Assembly (NCBI GenBank): GCA_025782575.1
Contig: JALGYY010000035.1
Location: 208,670-272,669, forward strand
Length of the DNA stretch: 64,000 nt
Source: a bacterium
Lineage (GTDB): Bacteria; Orphanbacterota; Orphanbacteria; Orphanbacterales; Orphanbacteraceae
Direction of reading: 5' to 3'
The notes under the pieces were generated by a model. That model worked only from the letters and a program-made list of their open reading frames with translations. It was not told where the DNA came from and searched no databases. How positions within the stretch are numbered: position 1 is the first letter of the stretch; each line of letters opens with the position of its first letter. Both the position numbers and the translations under genes were made by a program. Of the stretch, positions 24,033-31,187 are shown piece after piece.

Positions 24033-24058
24033 CCGGGGCTAGAACCGATAAGCCCCGG
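24033..24058. terminator. Stem-loop at the convergent gene ends
   Basis: CCGGGGCT (24033-24040), a 10-base loop and AGCCCCGG (24051-24058) make a perfect 8-base, GC-rich stem that includes the stop codon of the minus-strand barrel gene. It lies 39 bases after the end of panE, so it could end transcription from both sides. No T run follows on either strand. Confidence 0.45.
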
Positions 24059-25373
24059 TGGCGATAAACCGGTCGGTCGATCGCTTCTCACTGTACAGGG
24101 ACGGATCCAGAGAGTGTGTACGCTCATACGATCCTGTCTCGAATGCGAGATCCAGCGCGAAAGCACTTCCGAACAGATAGCCCGCGCCTACGGAATACCG
24201 ATTGCGATCCTTGTCCAGTTCCACATCTACCTCGGCCGGATCACGACCGGTATCGAGACAATCATCGAACGGGCAATAGGTCAGTGTGAACGGCACCGGG
24301 TCATAGCCGTACCCGGCTCGGACACGGAGAGGGAATGCGGGGAAGAGGTACTCACCACCAATGCTGAACGAGAGTTTTTCATCGTAATAGGGCTTCAGGA
24401 AGAACTCTGTATCGCCCACCTTGTCCTCGATCGCCTGCCAATCGCTATACCGGACATCGGCGGCGAGCATGAACCCTCTTTTGGCGAACGACACACCGAA
24501 TCCGGCCCACCATGGAAACGTTATCTCCTCGTCAGCCAAACCGCCGAAATCAGACTCAATAATTTCCGACCCATCATCGTACCTCGTACTGAAACGAATC
24601 TGCTCCACTCGCTCGAAATCGAGCACGCGAGGGGTTCCGAGGACGCCGCCGAACCGGATCTGGGGGGATGCCTGATAAAGAAATCCGGCCATGGCGGAGT
24701 ATCCGCTCAGATCCATATCGAGCAGGAAGTAGTCATCCAGGTAGAGCGTGTCGGTGGCATCATCCGCGTCTTCCGTGCGGAAAGACTGCTCATCAAGAAT
24801 CGAACCGGTCAGGATCTGCACGGTACCACCGACCGATAGCCTCGGTGTCACATCCCAGGCGACCGCGCCCGATACGGCGGTCAGCTTCCCTTCCCGCTGG
24901 TGGCGATCCGTCAGGAGGCCGGGCCGGCCACCCCAGATCGAGACATCGCTGTCGAGCCCCGAACGTATGTAATCGAGATCGTAGTTCCGAAGCCTGTCGA
25001 TGCCGAACCCGAGGACGAGGGATCCCCGGTACGTCGGAAACGGATAAATGAAGTGAAGGCCGCCGATCTGGGCGTCCGATGAAGAACCATCCGCGCCGTT
25101 TCCGAACCAGGTCGTTTCGATTTCCTGATCGTCTGATGAGATCGACGTCGATAGCTCGACGCGCTTCACATGAACCAGTCCGGCCGGGTTCCATGTAATG
25201 GCGGAAGCGTCTTCCGCCACGGCAATATGGGCGCGTCCCATACCGACCGCACGGGCGTGGGTGCCGACGAGATCAGGAAGCGGGATTTCAAGTTCAGTGA
25301 ACGGGTGGCCGGCCGCAGCCGCCGACCCTGCGGCAAACAGCGCCGCCGCGAGTGGTACGAGGCATCGGTTCAT
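24039..25373 (-). CDS. Outer-membrane beta-barrel protein, FadL/PorV-like
   Basis: A 444-residue protein with a signal peptide (residues 1-20, Ala-rich, cut after AAAA). The start of the mature part, ARAVGMGRAHIAVAEDASAITWNPAGL, read in pieces, is the signature of the OmpP1/FadL and PorV/UPF0164 barrels: an N-terminal region with a D.SA...NPAG motif that plugs the barrel. The remainder alternates polar and aromatic residues in strands and ends in an aromatic residue (F444), as outer-membrane proteins do. Such proteins carry hydrophobic molecules or attach to secretion systems. It is the second gene of an operon with the CxxCH lipoprotein, 12 bases upstream. Confidence 0.78.
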   Translation of the reverse strand: MNRCLVPLAAALFAAGSAAAAGHPFTELEIPLPDLVGTHARAVGMGRAHIAVAEDASAITWNPAGLVHVKRVELSTSISSDDQEIETTWFGNGADGSSSDAQIGGLHFIYPFPTYRGSLVLGFGIDRLRNYDLDYIRSGLDSDVSIWGGRPGLLTDRHQREGKLTAVSGAVAWDVTPRLSVGGTVQILTGSILDEQSFRTEDADDATDTLYLDDYFLLDMDLSGYSAMAGFLYQASPQIRFGGVLGTPRVLDFERVEQIRFSTRYDDGSEIIESDFGGLADEEITFPWWAGFGVSFAKRGFMLAADVRYSDWQAIEDKVGDTEFFLKPYYDEKLSFSIGGEYLFPAFPLRVRAGYGYDPVPFTLTYCPFDDCLDTGRDPAEVDVELDKDRNRYSVGAGYLFGSAFALDLAFETGSYERTHSLDPSLYSEKRSTDRFIATGAYRF

Positions 25374-25385
25374 GAGGAATCCCTT

Positions 25386-25928
25386 TTATCTGGGGTTTCT
25401 TTTTTTCTTTTCAAAGGAAGATCGGTTCGTGTCGCGGGCTGGTTTATCGTCCTCATTCGAATTGGCTGCCCCGGATGCCCCCGAGGACTGGATATTCCCT
25501 CCGTTCGATCCGGCGCGGGTGGCGGGAACCTCGACCGCGGCCCTGGAACCGGTCGGTTCCTCCCCGCGACGAAGTTTTCGTTTGGACCAGCTCGACGGTC
25601 CACCGGTCAGTCCGTCAGCGCCACCGTCCTCGTAGTACCAGTAGTCATCGTACCACCATGGACGCTGGTAATAGTCATACCACCAGTCATAGGCGTAGTA
25701 GCCGGATGAACCGTAGACAAGAGGATGATCGAAGAGGCCGAGCCACTCACTTTCATAATGGCAGTCGGCGCACGCCGCGTCGCCGACGGAACCGCCGGCG
25801 CTCCCGGGGAGTGCCACAGGCTCAGCCGTGGGATGGCGGACAACGGTATAGCAGCCGACCGCGGTAAATGCGAGAACGACAATGAGAGAGATGAGGAACG
25901 GACGATTGGTACGGCTCGATTCAGTCAT
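25386..25928 (-). CDS. Lipoprotein with one CxxCH motif and a Tyr/Trp-rich segment
   Basis: A 180-residue lipoprotein with lipobox AVGC (Cys 26). The mature part has a single CADCH (residues ~54-58), the covalent haem attachment motif of c-type cytochromes, with a further His about 11 residues on. There follows an extraordinary Tyr/Trp/Asp-rich run (residues ~73-101, about half aromatic), then a Gly/Ser/Asn-rich, basic tail to the end. I know no family. A mono-haem lipoprotein or a metal-binding one are both possible; one CxxCH can also be zinc or chance. It heads the operon with the outer-membrane barrel, so both products should meet at the outer membrane. Confidence 0.68.
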   Translation of the reverse strand: MTESSRTNRPFLISLIVVLAFTAVGCYTVVRHPTAEPVALPGSAGGSVGDAACADCHYESEWLGLFDHPLVYGSSGYYAYDWWYDYYQRPWWYDDYWYYEDGGADGLTGGPSSWSKRKLRRGEEPTGSRAAVEVPATRAGSNGGNIQSSGASGAANSNEDDKPARDTNRSSFEKKKRNPR

Positions 25929-26067: not shown

Positions 26068-27780
26068 ATGCGAGCTGGAACAATAATCTTATCTCTGCTG
26101 ATCGGCACCCTGGCAGCATCATTCAGCTCGGCCCAGGTCGAATGGGAGGACCCTTCGCAGACACAGATTGAAGAGACTACACCCTTCTCCCCTGATGAAT
26201 CGATCTTCTCCCTCTATCTGAGAGCCAGGCAGCACGAACAGCGGAAAGAAATCGATCAAGCGATTCTGGCCTTCCAGCAGATCCTCGAGCTGAAGCCGGC
26301 CGAGGTCGAAGCCCACTCCAATCTGGCGCGCCTCTTTCTGGACAAAGGAGATGCCGACTCCGCCATCATCCACGCCGAAGCTGCAATCGCTATCGACCCG
26401 GACAACAAAACCGTACTGACCCTCCTCGCCCGATCATACAAAGCAGCCGGCCGGGGCCGGGATGCGATTCAAAAGCTCGAGTCATTGGTTGCGAACGGCG
26501 AGGGAGGCGGCCAAGCATACAACCTTCTCGCAATCCTCTACAAAGCGGAGAAGAAACCGAAAAAGGCGGGCGAAGCTCTGGAGAAGGCTGTCGAGGCTTC
26601 CCCGGAGAACGGCCTCTTCCACTATCGACTCGGTCAGAAATACTGGAGCGAAGGGCGTCTCGAGGAGGCTGAAACTGAACTACTGAAAGCTTTACACCTG
26701 ACGGATGGAGAAAACGAGATTCTTCTCGGACTCGCCCGCCTCTCGGTAATCACCGAGGACTGGGATACCGCAGCGGAGCGATGGGAAGAGGTCGCCATGC
26801 TCGGGTTCCGCCCCAGGGAAGCGCAGCAGAAGCTGGCAGTGATTTATATGAGTCTCGGCAGGGAAGAGGAAGCGCTCACTCATGCTGAAGCGCTGAAGGA
26901 ACTGGACCCGACCGATCTCAGTACCCGCCGCGAGCTTGCCGACCTTTACGAAAGACTCGGAATGCAGCAGGAAGCGCGCCAGGAACTGGGCGTTCTCTGG
27001 AAAGCGAACCCGGAAGACTGGCGCATCCCCTATCGAATGGTCTCTCTCAGTCTGGACGCCGGGACCTATCGTCAGGCGATCGCCACGCTCAGAAAGATTC
27101 TCGCTCTCAACAGGAATGACCTCTGGGCATGGACGAGACTCGCCTACGCGTTTTACGAACTGAATGAGGGGGAGAAATCCGAGATGGCCGTTCAGGCCGC
27201 TGTCCGGCTCGACCCGAACAACCGGGACGCCTACACACTCCTCGGTGATGCCTTTGCTCTTGGGAAGGCCGATGAGAAGGCGCTCGTTTTTCTCGGGAAA
27301 GCCTTCGATCTCGGAGTACGGTCCGACACGTTTTTGTTTCGCAAAGGAATTGTCGAAGAAAGAAACGATCGGATCGATGATGCTACGCAAACCTTGAAAG
27401 AATTGATCCGAATCAATCCGACTCATGCCGCCGGGTTGAATTTTCTGGGCTACATGCTCGCCGATCATGGTCGATCGCTCGTCGAAGCCGAGGATCTGAT
27501 CAACCGTGCTCTGCAAATCGAACCGGATAATCCCTTTTTCGTCGATTCGCTCGGCTGGCTCCATTTCCGAAAGGGCCGATTCGAATCCGCCGTCAAAGAA
27601 CTGGAGAGGGCGGCCGCCCTCTTGTCGAACGATGTGGTCGTCGGCGAGCACCTCGGGGATGCTTATCTGGCTGCCGGTAGAATCGAAGACGCCCAGCGGA
27701 TCTACTCCGAAGTTCTGGCCGATCACCCGACGAACACCACCATCTCCGACAAACTCGAAGCGCTCGATCATGCACGATGA
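26068..27780 (+). CDS. Exported TPR-repeat protein
   Basis: A 570-residue protein with a signal peptide (residues ~1-23, cut after FSSA) and then about 14 TPR units in unbroken succession (ILELKPAEVEAHSNLA, AIDPDNKTVLTLLA and so on), so a long superhelical scaffold in the periplasm or at the outer membrane. Family-length TPR proteins just upstream of a LolB-like lipoprotein are common in delta-type and FCB genomes, but no specific function is known. ATG 26068 has GGAGAGAGGAA upstream. Its 3' end overlaps the next gene by 11 bases, so the two are co-translated. Confidence 0.8.
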   Translation: MRAGTIILSLLIGTLAASFSSAQVEWEDPSQTQIEETTPFSPDESIFSLYLRARQHEQRKEIDQAILAFQQILELKPAEVEAHSNLARLFLDKGDADSAIIHAEAAIAIDPDNKTVLTLLARSYKAAGRGRDAIQKLESLVANGEGGGQAYNLLAILYKAEKKPKKAGEALEKAVEASPENGLFHYRLGQKYWSEGRLEEAETELLKALHLTDGENEILLGLARLSVITEDWDTAAERWEEVAMLGFRPREAQQKLAVIYMSLGREEEALTHAEALKELDPTDLSTRRELADLYERLGMQQEARQELGVLWKANPEDWRIPYRMVSLSLDAGTYRQAIATLRKILALNRNDLWAWTRLAYAFYELNEGEKSEMAVQAAVRLDPNNRDAYTLLGDAFALGKADEKALVFLGKAFDLGVRSDTFLFRKGIVEERNDRIDDATQTLKELIRINPTHAAGLNFLGYMLADHGRSLVEAEDLINRALQIEPDNPFFVDSLGWLHFRKGRFESAVKELERAAALLSNDVVVGEHLGDAYLAAGRIEDAQRIYSEVLADHPTNTTISDKLEALDHAR

Positions 27781-28627
27781 TCCTGCTCTGAATAAGACGG
27801 CTCGGCCCGGATCACAATGGGGGGGAGGGGGCTTCCTGGTTCTCGGCACAGTCGTGATGGTGCTGGCGTTCGGTATATCCCTGCTTCCCGGCTGTTCCTC
27901 CACCCGGCCGCCGACCGCCATGCAGGCCCGGACTGACGGCCTTCAGAGCCAGGTGCTCGAAATCCTCGCAGATCGAACGCACGCGATGCGGAGCCTCACC
28001 TGCGCCGGAACACTTTTAATCAAATGGGAAACGGAAAGACACTTCGTTCATTTTGAAGCCGCCTATCTCGGGCCGGACATGCTGAGACTTGATCTGGAAC
28101 TGAGCGGACCCCTCGGTCTCGGGGCGGGCGATCTCCACTACGTGGAACGGGGCGATTCGGCGGAAGTTCTTCTTCCGGGCGAGTCATTTCCCCGCAGGGG
28201 GCGGACGGGAGGGCCGGAATTCGATTTTCTGCAGACGAAAGGTTTTCCGACCAGGGACGCCACATTCCTTGTCGCCCCCTATGCCGGTTCTCCAGAGCTT
28301 TTTGCCGCTGAAAACGTGATCCATATGGGCCCCGATACCCGATCGGGGCGAATCCGCCTCGTCCTCGTCCGCCCCGACCGGCTGAGAGAAGTCCTTCTCC
28401 TGGAACCTCCCGGCTTTTCGTTGGTGGAACGGAGAGTGACGAGACCGGGCGGGGAGGTACTCCTCGTTTCCCGCTACGATTATGGCGACGATCCCGCGTC
28501 TCTCACCGCCGAAAAGGTGGACAATGAAATCCCGGGGGAAAGTTCGATCCAGGTTCGATTCCGGGAATTGGTTTCTAACGCACCGATTGACGAAGGGCGG
28601 TTCGCATGGTTCAACGGAACACGCTGA
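27770..28627 (+). CDS. LolB/DUF4292-like outer-membrane lipoprotein
   Basis: A 285-residue lipoprotein. The N-terminal hydrophobic segment (residues ~27-45) ends in LPGC, a usable lipobox. The mature part reads as strands in the order of LolB-like folds: a LTCAGTLLIKWE segment, then FEAAYLGPDMLRLDLELSGPLG in two strands, then regular beta repeats to a C-terminal IQVRFRELV. LolB receives lipoproteins from LolA and inserts them in the outer membrane; DUF4292 relatives are less well known. It overlaps the TPR gene by 11 bases. LolC and LolD homologues are elsewhere in the window (48590-50541). Its C-terminal end overlaps the upstream extension of the sigma-factor frame. Confidence 0.6.
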   Translation: MHDDPALNKTARPGSQWGGGGFLVLGTVVMVLAFGISLLPGCSSTRPPTAMQARTDGLQSQVLEILADRTHAMRSLTCAGTLLIKWETERHFVHFEAAYLGPDMLRLDLELSGPLGLGAGDLHYVERGDSAEVLLPGESFPRRGRTGGPEFDFLQTKGFPTRDATFLVAPYAGSPELFAAENVIHMGPDTRSGRIRLVLVRPDRLREVLLLEPPGFSLVERRVTRPGGEVLLVSRYDYGDDPASLTAEKVDNEIPGESSIQVRFRELVSNAPIDEGRFAWFNGTR

Positions 28628-28752
28628 GAAGCATCGGAGAAACGCTTGCTCCCCATGCGCCCGGAACGGTAGGATTCGGCCTGCGCTCTCAGTCCGGCTC
28701 CCGAATCAGGGAATCCGGCTACCTGCCGAGCGAAGGGGTCGCCTGCAAACCG

Positions 28753-29364
28753 ATGGCAGTGGACAAAGACAAGCCGAATCCGCGAGATGCCATGGACGAG
28801 CAGCTCATGGCCCGCTATCAGGAGGGGGAGGAAGCAGCCTTCACCGAACTCGTGCGTCGCTATAAATCCCGCCTGGTACACACCGCCTATCGTGTTGTCG
28901 GTGACTCGGACAAAGCGGAGGATGTTGCCCAGGAGACTTTTCTCCGCGTACACCGGAACGCTCATCGTTATCGGAACATCGCGAAATTCTCAACCTGGAT
29001 CTACACCATTGCGTTGAATGTGGCCCGAAATGAACTTCGGAACACCAAGAGAAAAAGGCTGGTCTCACTGGACGCTTTCGGTTCGAGTCAGGATTCAGAC
29101 TCCGAGCGGACCACTTTCGACATTCCGGACGAGTCAGCCAGGCCCGATCTGGACATGGAAAACAGCGAGCTGAGAGAGATTTTTCAGCGTGCCATCGCCG
29201 AGCTCCCCGTGCGGTACCGGACCGTTTTTGTCCTTCGGGATATACAAGGTCTCTCGTATGAGGAGATCGCGACTATCATGAGAATGCCCAAAGGGACAGT
29301 AAAGTCCCGGATGAACCGGGCAAGACAAAGATTCCGGGAACTGATCACACCAATTGTGGGTTAA
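28753..29364 (+). CDS. ECF-family RNA polymerase sigma factor
   Basis: A 203-residue RpoE-like sigma factor. The region 2 segment begins DEQLMARYQEGEEAAFTELV (~15-34), with AEDVAQETFLRVHR as the -10 recognition part. Region 4 holds LPVRYRTVFVLRD and the LSYEEIATIM...GTVKSRMNRAR helix-turn-helix. The same frame is open back to an ATG at 28606, overlapping the LolB-like gene, but that extension has no sigma-factor character; ATG 28753 and 28792 are the sensible starts and the choice is not firm. The zinc-finger anti-sigma gene follows after 45 bases, the usual pairing. The regulon is likely envelope stress, by neighbourhood. Confidence 0.88.
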   Translation: MAVDKDKPNPRDAMDEQLMARYQEGEEAAFTELVRRYKSRLVHTAYRVVGDSDKAEDVAQETFLRVHRNAHRYRNIAKFSTWIYTIALNVARNELRNTKRKRLVSLDAFGSSQDSDSERTTFDIPDESARPDLDMENSELREIFQRAIAELPVRYRTVFVLRDIQGLSYEEIATIMRMPKGTVKSRMNRARQRFRELITPIVG

Positions 29365-29409: not shown

Positions 29410-30063
29410 ATGAACTGTAACCGCGCACGTAAACTCTTTTCAGACTGCCTGGACGAGGAACTCTCGGGGAGCAGGGAACAGGGTTTCAAGGAACATCTGC
29501 AATGCTGCCCGGAATGCCGGTCAGCCTGGGCATCCTACGAGACAACCTTCCTGGCGGTTCGATCCCTTCCACCTCTCGTCGTCTCCGATTCGTTCGAGAC
29601 GAGGCTACGGGCCCGGATCCGGGAGAAAGAGGGGGCCCCACTCGGGAAGACAAGTTGGTGGTCCGATTTCGCCCGAATTCCGCTTCCCGTACCGATCGGC
29701 GCCGCCGGCCTCCTCTTCGTCGCCATCTTTGCCTACAACCAGTTCGGCGCAGTCTCCCCTTCGGAGGGGACAGCTTCGATTGCGGCTTCTCCGGAACGCT
29801 CAGCTCCGTCGATCGTGGAGAATACCAGACCGAGCTTCGCACCCAATCTATTGATGCCGGGTAACTTCGGCCAGGTGGTTGACTACGGGATCTACGGCCC
29901 GCCACGGCGGGAAGTCTATCAGCAGCCGAGAAGCCCTCACCACTATCTGAGGGACCGGAACGGCGCCCCTCTCCATGGACCGACCAGGCCCTATGTCAGG
30001 AGCCAGGGTCGATCGAACATCGGAAGCCAAACCCATCCGGTTGACACTCTGCAAACCCGATAG
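29410..30063 (+). CDS. Zinc-finger (ZAS/HC2) anti-sigma factor
   Basis: A 217-residue membrane anti-sigma factor. The N-terminal cytoplasmic domain has the HxxxCxxC zinc motif (H29, C33, C36) of the zf-HC2 family, which wraps its sigma factor. One transmembrane helix lies near residues 94-112, followed by a ~100-residue periplasmic part that is Pro/Arg/His/Tyr-rich, low in complexity and without a known fold. Release of the sigma factor would follow cleavage or a zinc/thiol change. It pairs with the ECF sigma factor directly upstream. A possible ribosome site is GAGG about 20 bases before the ATG, so translation is probably modest. Confidence 0.85.
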   Translation: MNCNRARKLFSDCLDEELSGSREQGFKEHLQCCPECRSAWASYETTFLAVRSLPPLVVSDSFETRLRARIREKEGAPLGKTSWWSDFARIPLPVPIGAAGLLFVAIFAYNQFGAVSPSEGTASIAASPERSAPSIVENTRPSFAPNLLMPGNFGQVVDYGIYGPPRREVYQQPRSPHHYLRDRNGAPLHGPTRPYVRSQGRSNIGSQTHPVDTLQTR

Positions 30064-30110: not shown

Positions 30111-31187
30111 GTGACGTTCTCTCGATTCGCCCGATTCGCCCGGACCTTACCGGGCGTTCTCTCTTTAGGGCCTTCGATTCTTATTGTAGTTCTCGCTCTC
30201 CCCGCTCTTCACTGCAGCGGCGTGAGTGACCCCGCACTCGGATCCTACGAATCGATCCGAGTCATATATCAGAGTACTCCGCCTCCCGACCTGATGAGTT
30301 CGGTAGAAGACGCCCTCGCCATTCCATTCGTAACGTTCCAGGAAGAGACGCTCTTTTATCTTTACCCCCACCCGGTCCGCCAGTTGGAAGATTTCCAGAA
30401 TCTCAAGAACCTGTTATTCCTGGTAGACCTCTCCGAGAGGGGCCAGTTGACGGACATCGCAAACGAACTGCTTGGTGCGGCGAAACTGAACGAAGTAGTC
30501 CGAGGAGGAACCTCGACGCTTCTCTTCCTCGACAATGTGTGGGCCAGGGGACAGACGGCGGCTTTTCTTCTCGCTGCTGATCACGCGGAGCTCCAGACGG
30601 GACTTCAAACGGAGGGGGATCGGATCCGGAGCGGCTTCCTGAACTCCAATCGCAAACGGATTCTCAAATACCTTCTCTACCGAGGGGAAAACAAGACGCT
30701 CTCCAGACAGATATTCGAAGATCATGGCTGGTTTATCAGGATGCCCGCCCCATTCGTCGAAGATCCCCGGCATACGGGCGAGGGATTCTTCACGATGAAG
30801 ATGGGCAGGCCGGGCCGGCTCCTGTTCGTCTACTGGATGGACGGGTTCAACAGCCTGCCGGAGGGTGACGAAATCATCGCCCTCAGAAATGATCTCGGTT
30901 TTCGCTACTATGACGAAGACGAAATCGAACCGACCTTGACCGGTTATTCGAAAGCCCTGTTCAAAGGATGGGATGCGATCCGCCTCGAAGGGGTCTGGCA
31001 GAACGATAAATACGTCATAGGGGGGCCGTTCCGATCCGTCGCGTTTCTGCAGCCTCAAACTGACCGTCTGTTTCTGATCGATTACTGCGTCTATGCCCCG
31101 GACTTCCCGAAGAAGTACTACCTCTGGGAGCTGGAGTCCGTACTTGAAACATTTACGTTTGAAGGTCCTCCGGAAGAATCATCATGA
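30111..31187 (+). CDS. DUF4837-family envelope protein
   Basis: A 358-residue exported protein of the DUF4837 family, known mostly from Bacteroidota and relatives. The N-terminal hydrophobic stretch (residues ~12-35) is followed by ALHC; His at -1 is unusual for a lipobox, so lipidation is uncertain. The mature part shows typical blocks: IPFVTFQEETLFYLYPH, an HGWFIRMPAPF core, VYWMDGFN, and the closing FVYW/LRNDLGFRYY region. The role is unknown. The GTG start has a GGAAGG site. It follows the anti-sigma gene by 47 bases and overlaps aroB by four (ATGA), so it belongs to the same run. Confidence 0.72.
   Translation: MTFSRFARFARTLPGVLSLGPSILIVVLALPALHCSGVSDPALGSYESIRVIYQSTPPPDLMSSVEDALAIPFVTFQEETLFYLYPHPVRQLEDFQNLKNLLFLVDLSERGQLTDIANELLGAAKLNEVVRGGTSTLLFLDNVWARGQTAAFLLAADHAELQTGLQTEGDRIRSGFLNSNRKRILKYLLYRGENKTLSRQIFEDHGWFIRMPAPFVEDPRHTGEGFFTMKMGRPGRLLFVYWMDGFNSLPEGDEIIALRNDLGFRYYDEDEIEPTLTGYSKALFKGWDAIRLEGVWQNDKYVIGGPFRSVAFLQPQTDRLFLIDYCVYAPDFPKKYYLWELESVLETFTFEGPPEESS

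Follow-up and report, generated by a model that had tools for sequence, protein, structure and literature searches.

The window, i.e., the whole 64,000-nucleotide stretch of DNA that was analysed, encodes a short putative lipoprotein (P0001) whose ORF reads from 25928 to 25386; the plus-strand frame of the same coordinates contains a stop. The ORF of an outer-membrane barrel begins 12 bases downstream on the same strand, as the first-pass annotation had pointed out, and this barrel belongs to the FadL family (Table 1). P0001 contains two His-Pro dipeptides (residues 32–33 and 68–69) and exactly one CxxCH, in a CADCH pentapeptide that had already been described together with an approximately half-aromatic stretch around residues 73–101. 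Both features were recovered, and 15 of the 29 residues of the stretch are Tyr or Trp (10 Tyr and 5 Trp). The densest 29-residue span of the mature protein holds 16 aromatic residues, a value reached in none of 20,000 shuffles of the mature sequence, while CxxCH arose by chance in 0.065% of the shuffled mature sequences. P0001 thus carries the sequence mark of a c-type cytochrome, namely a CxxCH in an exported protein.

No family in Pfam or NCBIfam covers P0001. Searches against PHROGs returned weak matches alone (E 0.05–0.07), and a PDB profile search gave chance-level matches, of which the best had an E of 0.014 and one, to a region of NrfA, an E of 0.015. The AlphaFold model of P0001 (pLDDT 56, pTM 0.23) was too poor for fold comparison or interpretation. 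Surface lipoproteins of Bacteroidota carry acidic residues directly after the lipid-bearing Cys as an export signal; such a signal is absent after the lipid Cys of P0001, where CYTVVRHP contains no acidic residues, and the surface location suggested in the first-pass annotation is unsupported.

Table 1. Features of the P0001 locus, with coordinates in the window
Feature	Coordinates	Strand	Basis or remark
Lipoprotein P0001	25386..25928	-	180 aa; CYT...HP...CxxCH...PWW family; ORF and family alignments
Signal peptide and lipobox, to lipid-accepting Cys26	25851..25928	-	Sequence; lipobox AVGC-YT
His32 (Cys+6), proposed distal haem ligand	25833..25835	-	Tracks CxxCH across 57 loci
CADCH, residues 53–57, proposed haem c attachment site	25758..25772	-	Sequence and family conservation
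Tyr/Trp-rich segment, residues 73–101	25626..25712	-	Contains RPWWYDDYW; alignments and shuffling
FadL-family outer-membrane barrel, presumed partner	24039..25373	-	444 aa; Pfam, AlphaFold, Foldseek, neighbour counts
TPR protein, divergently transcribed	26068..27780	+	Recurs in 9/24 loci
ECF sigma factor	28606..29364	+	Pfam; recurs in 8/24 loci
zf-HC2 anti-sigma-like protein	29410..30063	+	Pfam PF13490; recurs in 8/24 loci
DUF4837 protein, the next gene after anti-sigma	30111-31187		Cluster recurs in 7/24 loci

Profile searches found the P0001 family as a single-copy gene in several phyla: in all seven genomes searched of the window's own phylum, in 4/4 genomes of the phylum of G142 and in 18 of the 20 genomes of the phylum of G075, with more members elsewhere, and three Candidatus Eisenbacteria MAGs also carry relatives. 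A literature search by title returned no description of it, and the CYT-lipoprotein beside a FadL-type barrel is an undescribed family in many bacterial lineages. After the removal of duplicates and rejected matches, 56 loci plus the window (57 in total) were compared; L041 was retained as a doubtful member. The rejected matches were L012 (a glycine-rich lipoprotein), L038 (missed by a wider profile) and L042 (a multi-haem cytochrome). The proposed pairing with a barrel held among the relatives, since 53 of the 57 loci have a barrel neighbour on the same strand; the exceptions are L022, at a contig end, L029, with a barrel three genes upstream, and L032 and L041, with none recognised. The Cys-Tyr-Thr at the lipidation site shows no variation in any of three alignments (9, 20 and 26 sequences), Pro90-Trp91-Trp92 is nearly invariant, and its Trp pair is unchanged throughout the 20-sequence alignment, CxxCH-less members included. 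An unnamed single-copy pair kept across several phyla, and near-universal in some of them, points to a basic, undescribed outer-membrane function.

The barrel matched Toluene_X (PF03349) at 9.1e-15, with 54.5 bits against a gathering cut-off of 29.7, and its AlphaFold model was confident (pLDDT 86, pTM 0.82). A Foldseek search with this model ranked Flavobacterium johnsoniae BamG first (E 8.8e-18) with Escherichia coli FadL nearly equal (3e-17); the highest TM-scores belonged to Bacteroides thetaiotaomicron BamG, and the folds of TodX and CymD were matched too. Unlike the FadL/TodX family in general, barrels of the window's type have a consistent CYT-lipoprotein partner. In the Bacteroidota BAM, BamH docks on BamG through its lipidated N-terminus, and BamG2 and BamH2 of B. 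thetaiotaomicron lie in a putative operon (PMC12578637, PMC12611786). BamG/BamH (NF053685; PDB 9n2d, 9hiv, 9hjm), likewise a FadL-fold barrel with an outer-membrane lipoprotein and the closest solved fold, is the nearest barrel–lipoprotein arrangement to the pair described here. The latter could accordingly be an accessory or alternative BAM-type unit, with a second BamG-like barrel and a short lipoprotein standing in for BamH, aiding outer-membrane protein assembly, and with the CxxCH incidental. The structural matches and a weak match to the BamG profile fit such a unit, yet FadL scores almost as well as BamG, and the profile score of the barrel (65.4 bits) is far below the BamG cut-off of 250. 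The same genome also encodes a better BamG candidate (L043, G000:C2:761742-762872; 134.5 bits, itself below the cut-off) beside another lipoprotein gene, so that we consider a BAM-type unit unlikely. P0001 differs in being short and in carrying a CxxCH, and shares with BamH its pairing with a FadL-fold barrel. The comparison nevertheless bears on the reach of the newly described BamG-type barrel and lipoprotein arrangement beyond Bacteroidota. The lipoprotein gene adjoining L043 encodes 398 aa and may be a candidate BamH.

The CxxCH is present in 7/7 genomes of the window's phylum and in 40 of the 57 loci, a degree of conservation compatible with the first-pass annotation. Its presence closely follows that of a His six residues after the lipid Cys (Cys+6; His32 in P0001): 39 loci have both, 17 have neither, one has CxxCH alone and none has the His alone. 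The two are therefore concordant in 56/57 loci, with the His found in 39/40 CxxCH loci vs 0/17 CxxCH-less loci (Fisher p 1.5e-11 on 48 tree rows, relatedness ignored), while the offset from the His to the first Cys of the motif ranges from 15 to 30 residues across the family. The first-pass annotation had singled out a His downstream of the motif; this residue, His68, is not invariant, and the one tracking CxxCH is the upstream His32, which had been overlooked. On the barrel tree, CxxCH changed state at least four times and PF01578 (the cytochrome-c assembly family) at least twice; the independent pairs were too few for tree-based tests of joint loss to reach significance, with one pair per test on well-supported branches. 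Across the 57 loci, His32 and CxxCH come and go like parts of a single cofactor site, as expected for haem, perhaps with bis-His ligation. The sole member with CxxCH but without the His at Cys+6 is L097. L093, L095, L096, L098 and L100, from G009 and its relatives, keep a CxxC with neither the following His nor the His at Cys+6 (variants include CRWCSPW and CYWCSSW), and their genomes have no PF01578 match.

Of the tested genomes, all 35 that carry the CxxCH form gave a PF01578 match; among the 17 with the CxxCH-less form, 11 gave none. These 11 genomes represent two lineages, comprising four genomes of the phylum of G142, and G009 with its relatives; in the other six, PF01578 is present although the family member lacks CxxCH. 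An eighteenth tested CxxCH-less genome, G061, also has PF01578 and was left out, as it carried the rejected match L038. The window's own genome has five PF01578 matches and ResB (PF05140), i.e., the cytochrome c maturation genes that a haem protein would call for. The association of PF01578 with CxxCH is suggestive support for haem, and correlative because the independent changes are few. On the other hand, the Cys pair and His residues could form a structural zinc or iron site, or the two Cys a disulphide, with no haem at all. The CxxC of G009's relatives indeed indicates that a Cys pair can persist without haem. Neither a metal site nor a disulphide would need cytochrome-c assembly genes, yet these accompany CxxCH in every tested genome, and none of the 11 genomes without PF01578 keeps CxxCH, which, with two lineages, is not decisive. 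We regard a haem-free site as improbable. The co-conservation of His and CxxCH, combined with the PF01578 pattern, favours one c-type haem in P0001 over zinc or a disulphide, and the mono-haem reading of the first-pass annotation gains correlative support from both.

Lineages without CxxCH retain the CYT, the aromatic run and the barrel neighbour. The Tyr/Trp run is, on the alignments, apparently tied to the barrel pair and not to haem, because it persists where CxxCH is gone. Retention of these three features in haem-less lineages makes the conserved core look like lipoprotein–barrel docking, and the loss of the haem site from a pair that is itself kept suggests that the haem is an optional component of the outer-membrane complex. 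Our proposal, which we hold to be about evenly poised between right and wrong, is a two-gene outer-membrane module of a barrel and a docked lipoprotein core with an optional c-type haem. The FadL-family identity of the barrel and the retention of the lipoprotein gene beside it across many lineages are established. The lipidated Cys-Tyr-Thr N-terminus and the Tyr/Trp segment ending in PWW would hold the lipoprotein to the barrel and, between these two parts, most lineages, including that of the window, would carry a mini c-type haem site. The haem would be covalently attached to CxxCH, with His57 as the proximal and His32 probably as the distal ligand, and would be an optional addition to the conserved core, with a redox or a structural role. 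If the haem is confirmed, a c-type cytochrome would form part of a FadL-type barrel complex, and the loss of CxxCH in several lineages would provide natural comparisons with and without it.

The pairing of one CxxCH with an outer-membrane barrel also recalls Cyc2, a mono-haem cytochrome fused to a 16-strand porin and bearing an AXPXFAR motif (PMC8406198). As a split analogue of Cyc2, the haem lipoprotein and barrel could move electrons across the outer membrane, with the aromatic residues possibly relaying charge. In contrast to Cyc2, the two proteins here are separate, the barrel is of the FadL type instead of a 16-strand OprO/P-like porin, and AXPXFAR is absent from P0001. The porin–cytochrome (Pcc/Mtr) conduits likewise join an outer-membrane barrel to a CxxCH protein, but use multi-haem cytochromes (PMC4245776), whereas P0001 has one CxxCH. 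Moreover, the pair outlives the loss of CxxCH, and the recurrent neighbours in 24 loci included no electron-transfer genes. An electron conduit is thus very improbable.

The neighbours bear on what the module may do. An HtrA-like protease gene, not present in the window, occurs in 4/24 loci. Because genes for ECF sigma, anti-sigma and TPR proteins recur nearby, joined by HtrA-like ones in some lineages, the core may speculatively take part in outer-membrane maintenance or stress, to which haem could add electron transfer or redox sensing. A more specific version is improbable: a barrel–lipoprotein complex whose mono-haem cytochrome serves envelope maintenance as a redox sensor or switch, is tied to the adjacent ECF sigma/anti-sigma pair and discards its haem where cytochrome-c assembly is lost. 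Neighbourhood cluster c6, encoded opposite the barrel and overlapping it, was taken as antisense and set aside. Another small protein predicted to be in the outer membrane (cluster c2) occurs in 10/24 loci; it lies upstream of the lipoprotein at L047, L048, L054–L057, L059, L060, L063 and L064 and has weak YjbH/OMP_b-brl similarity.
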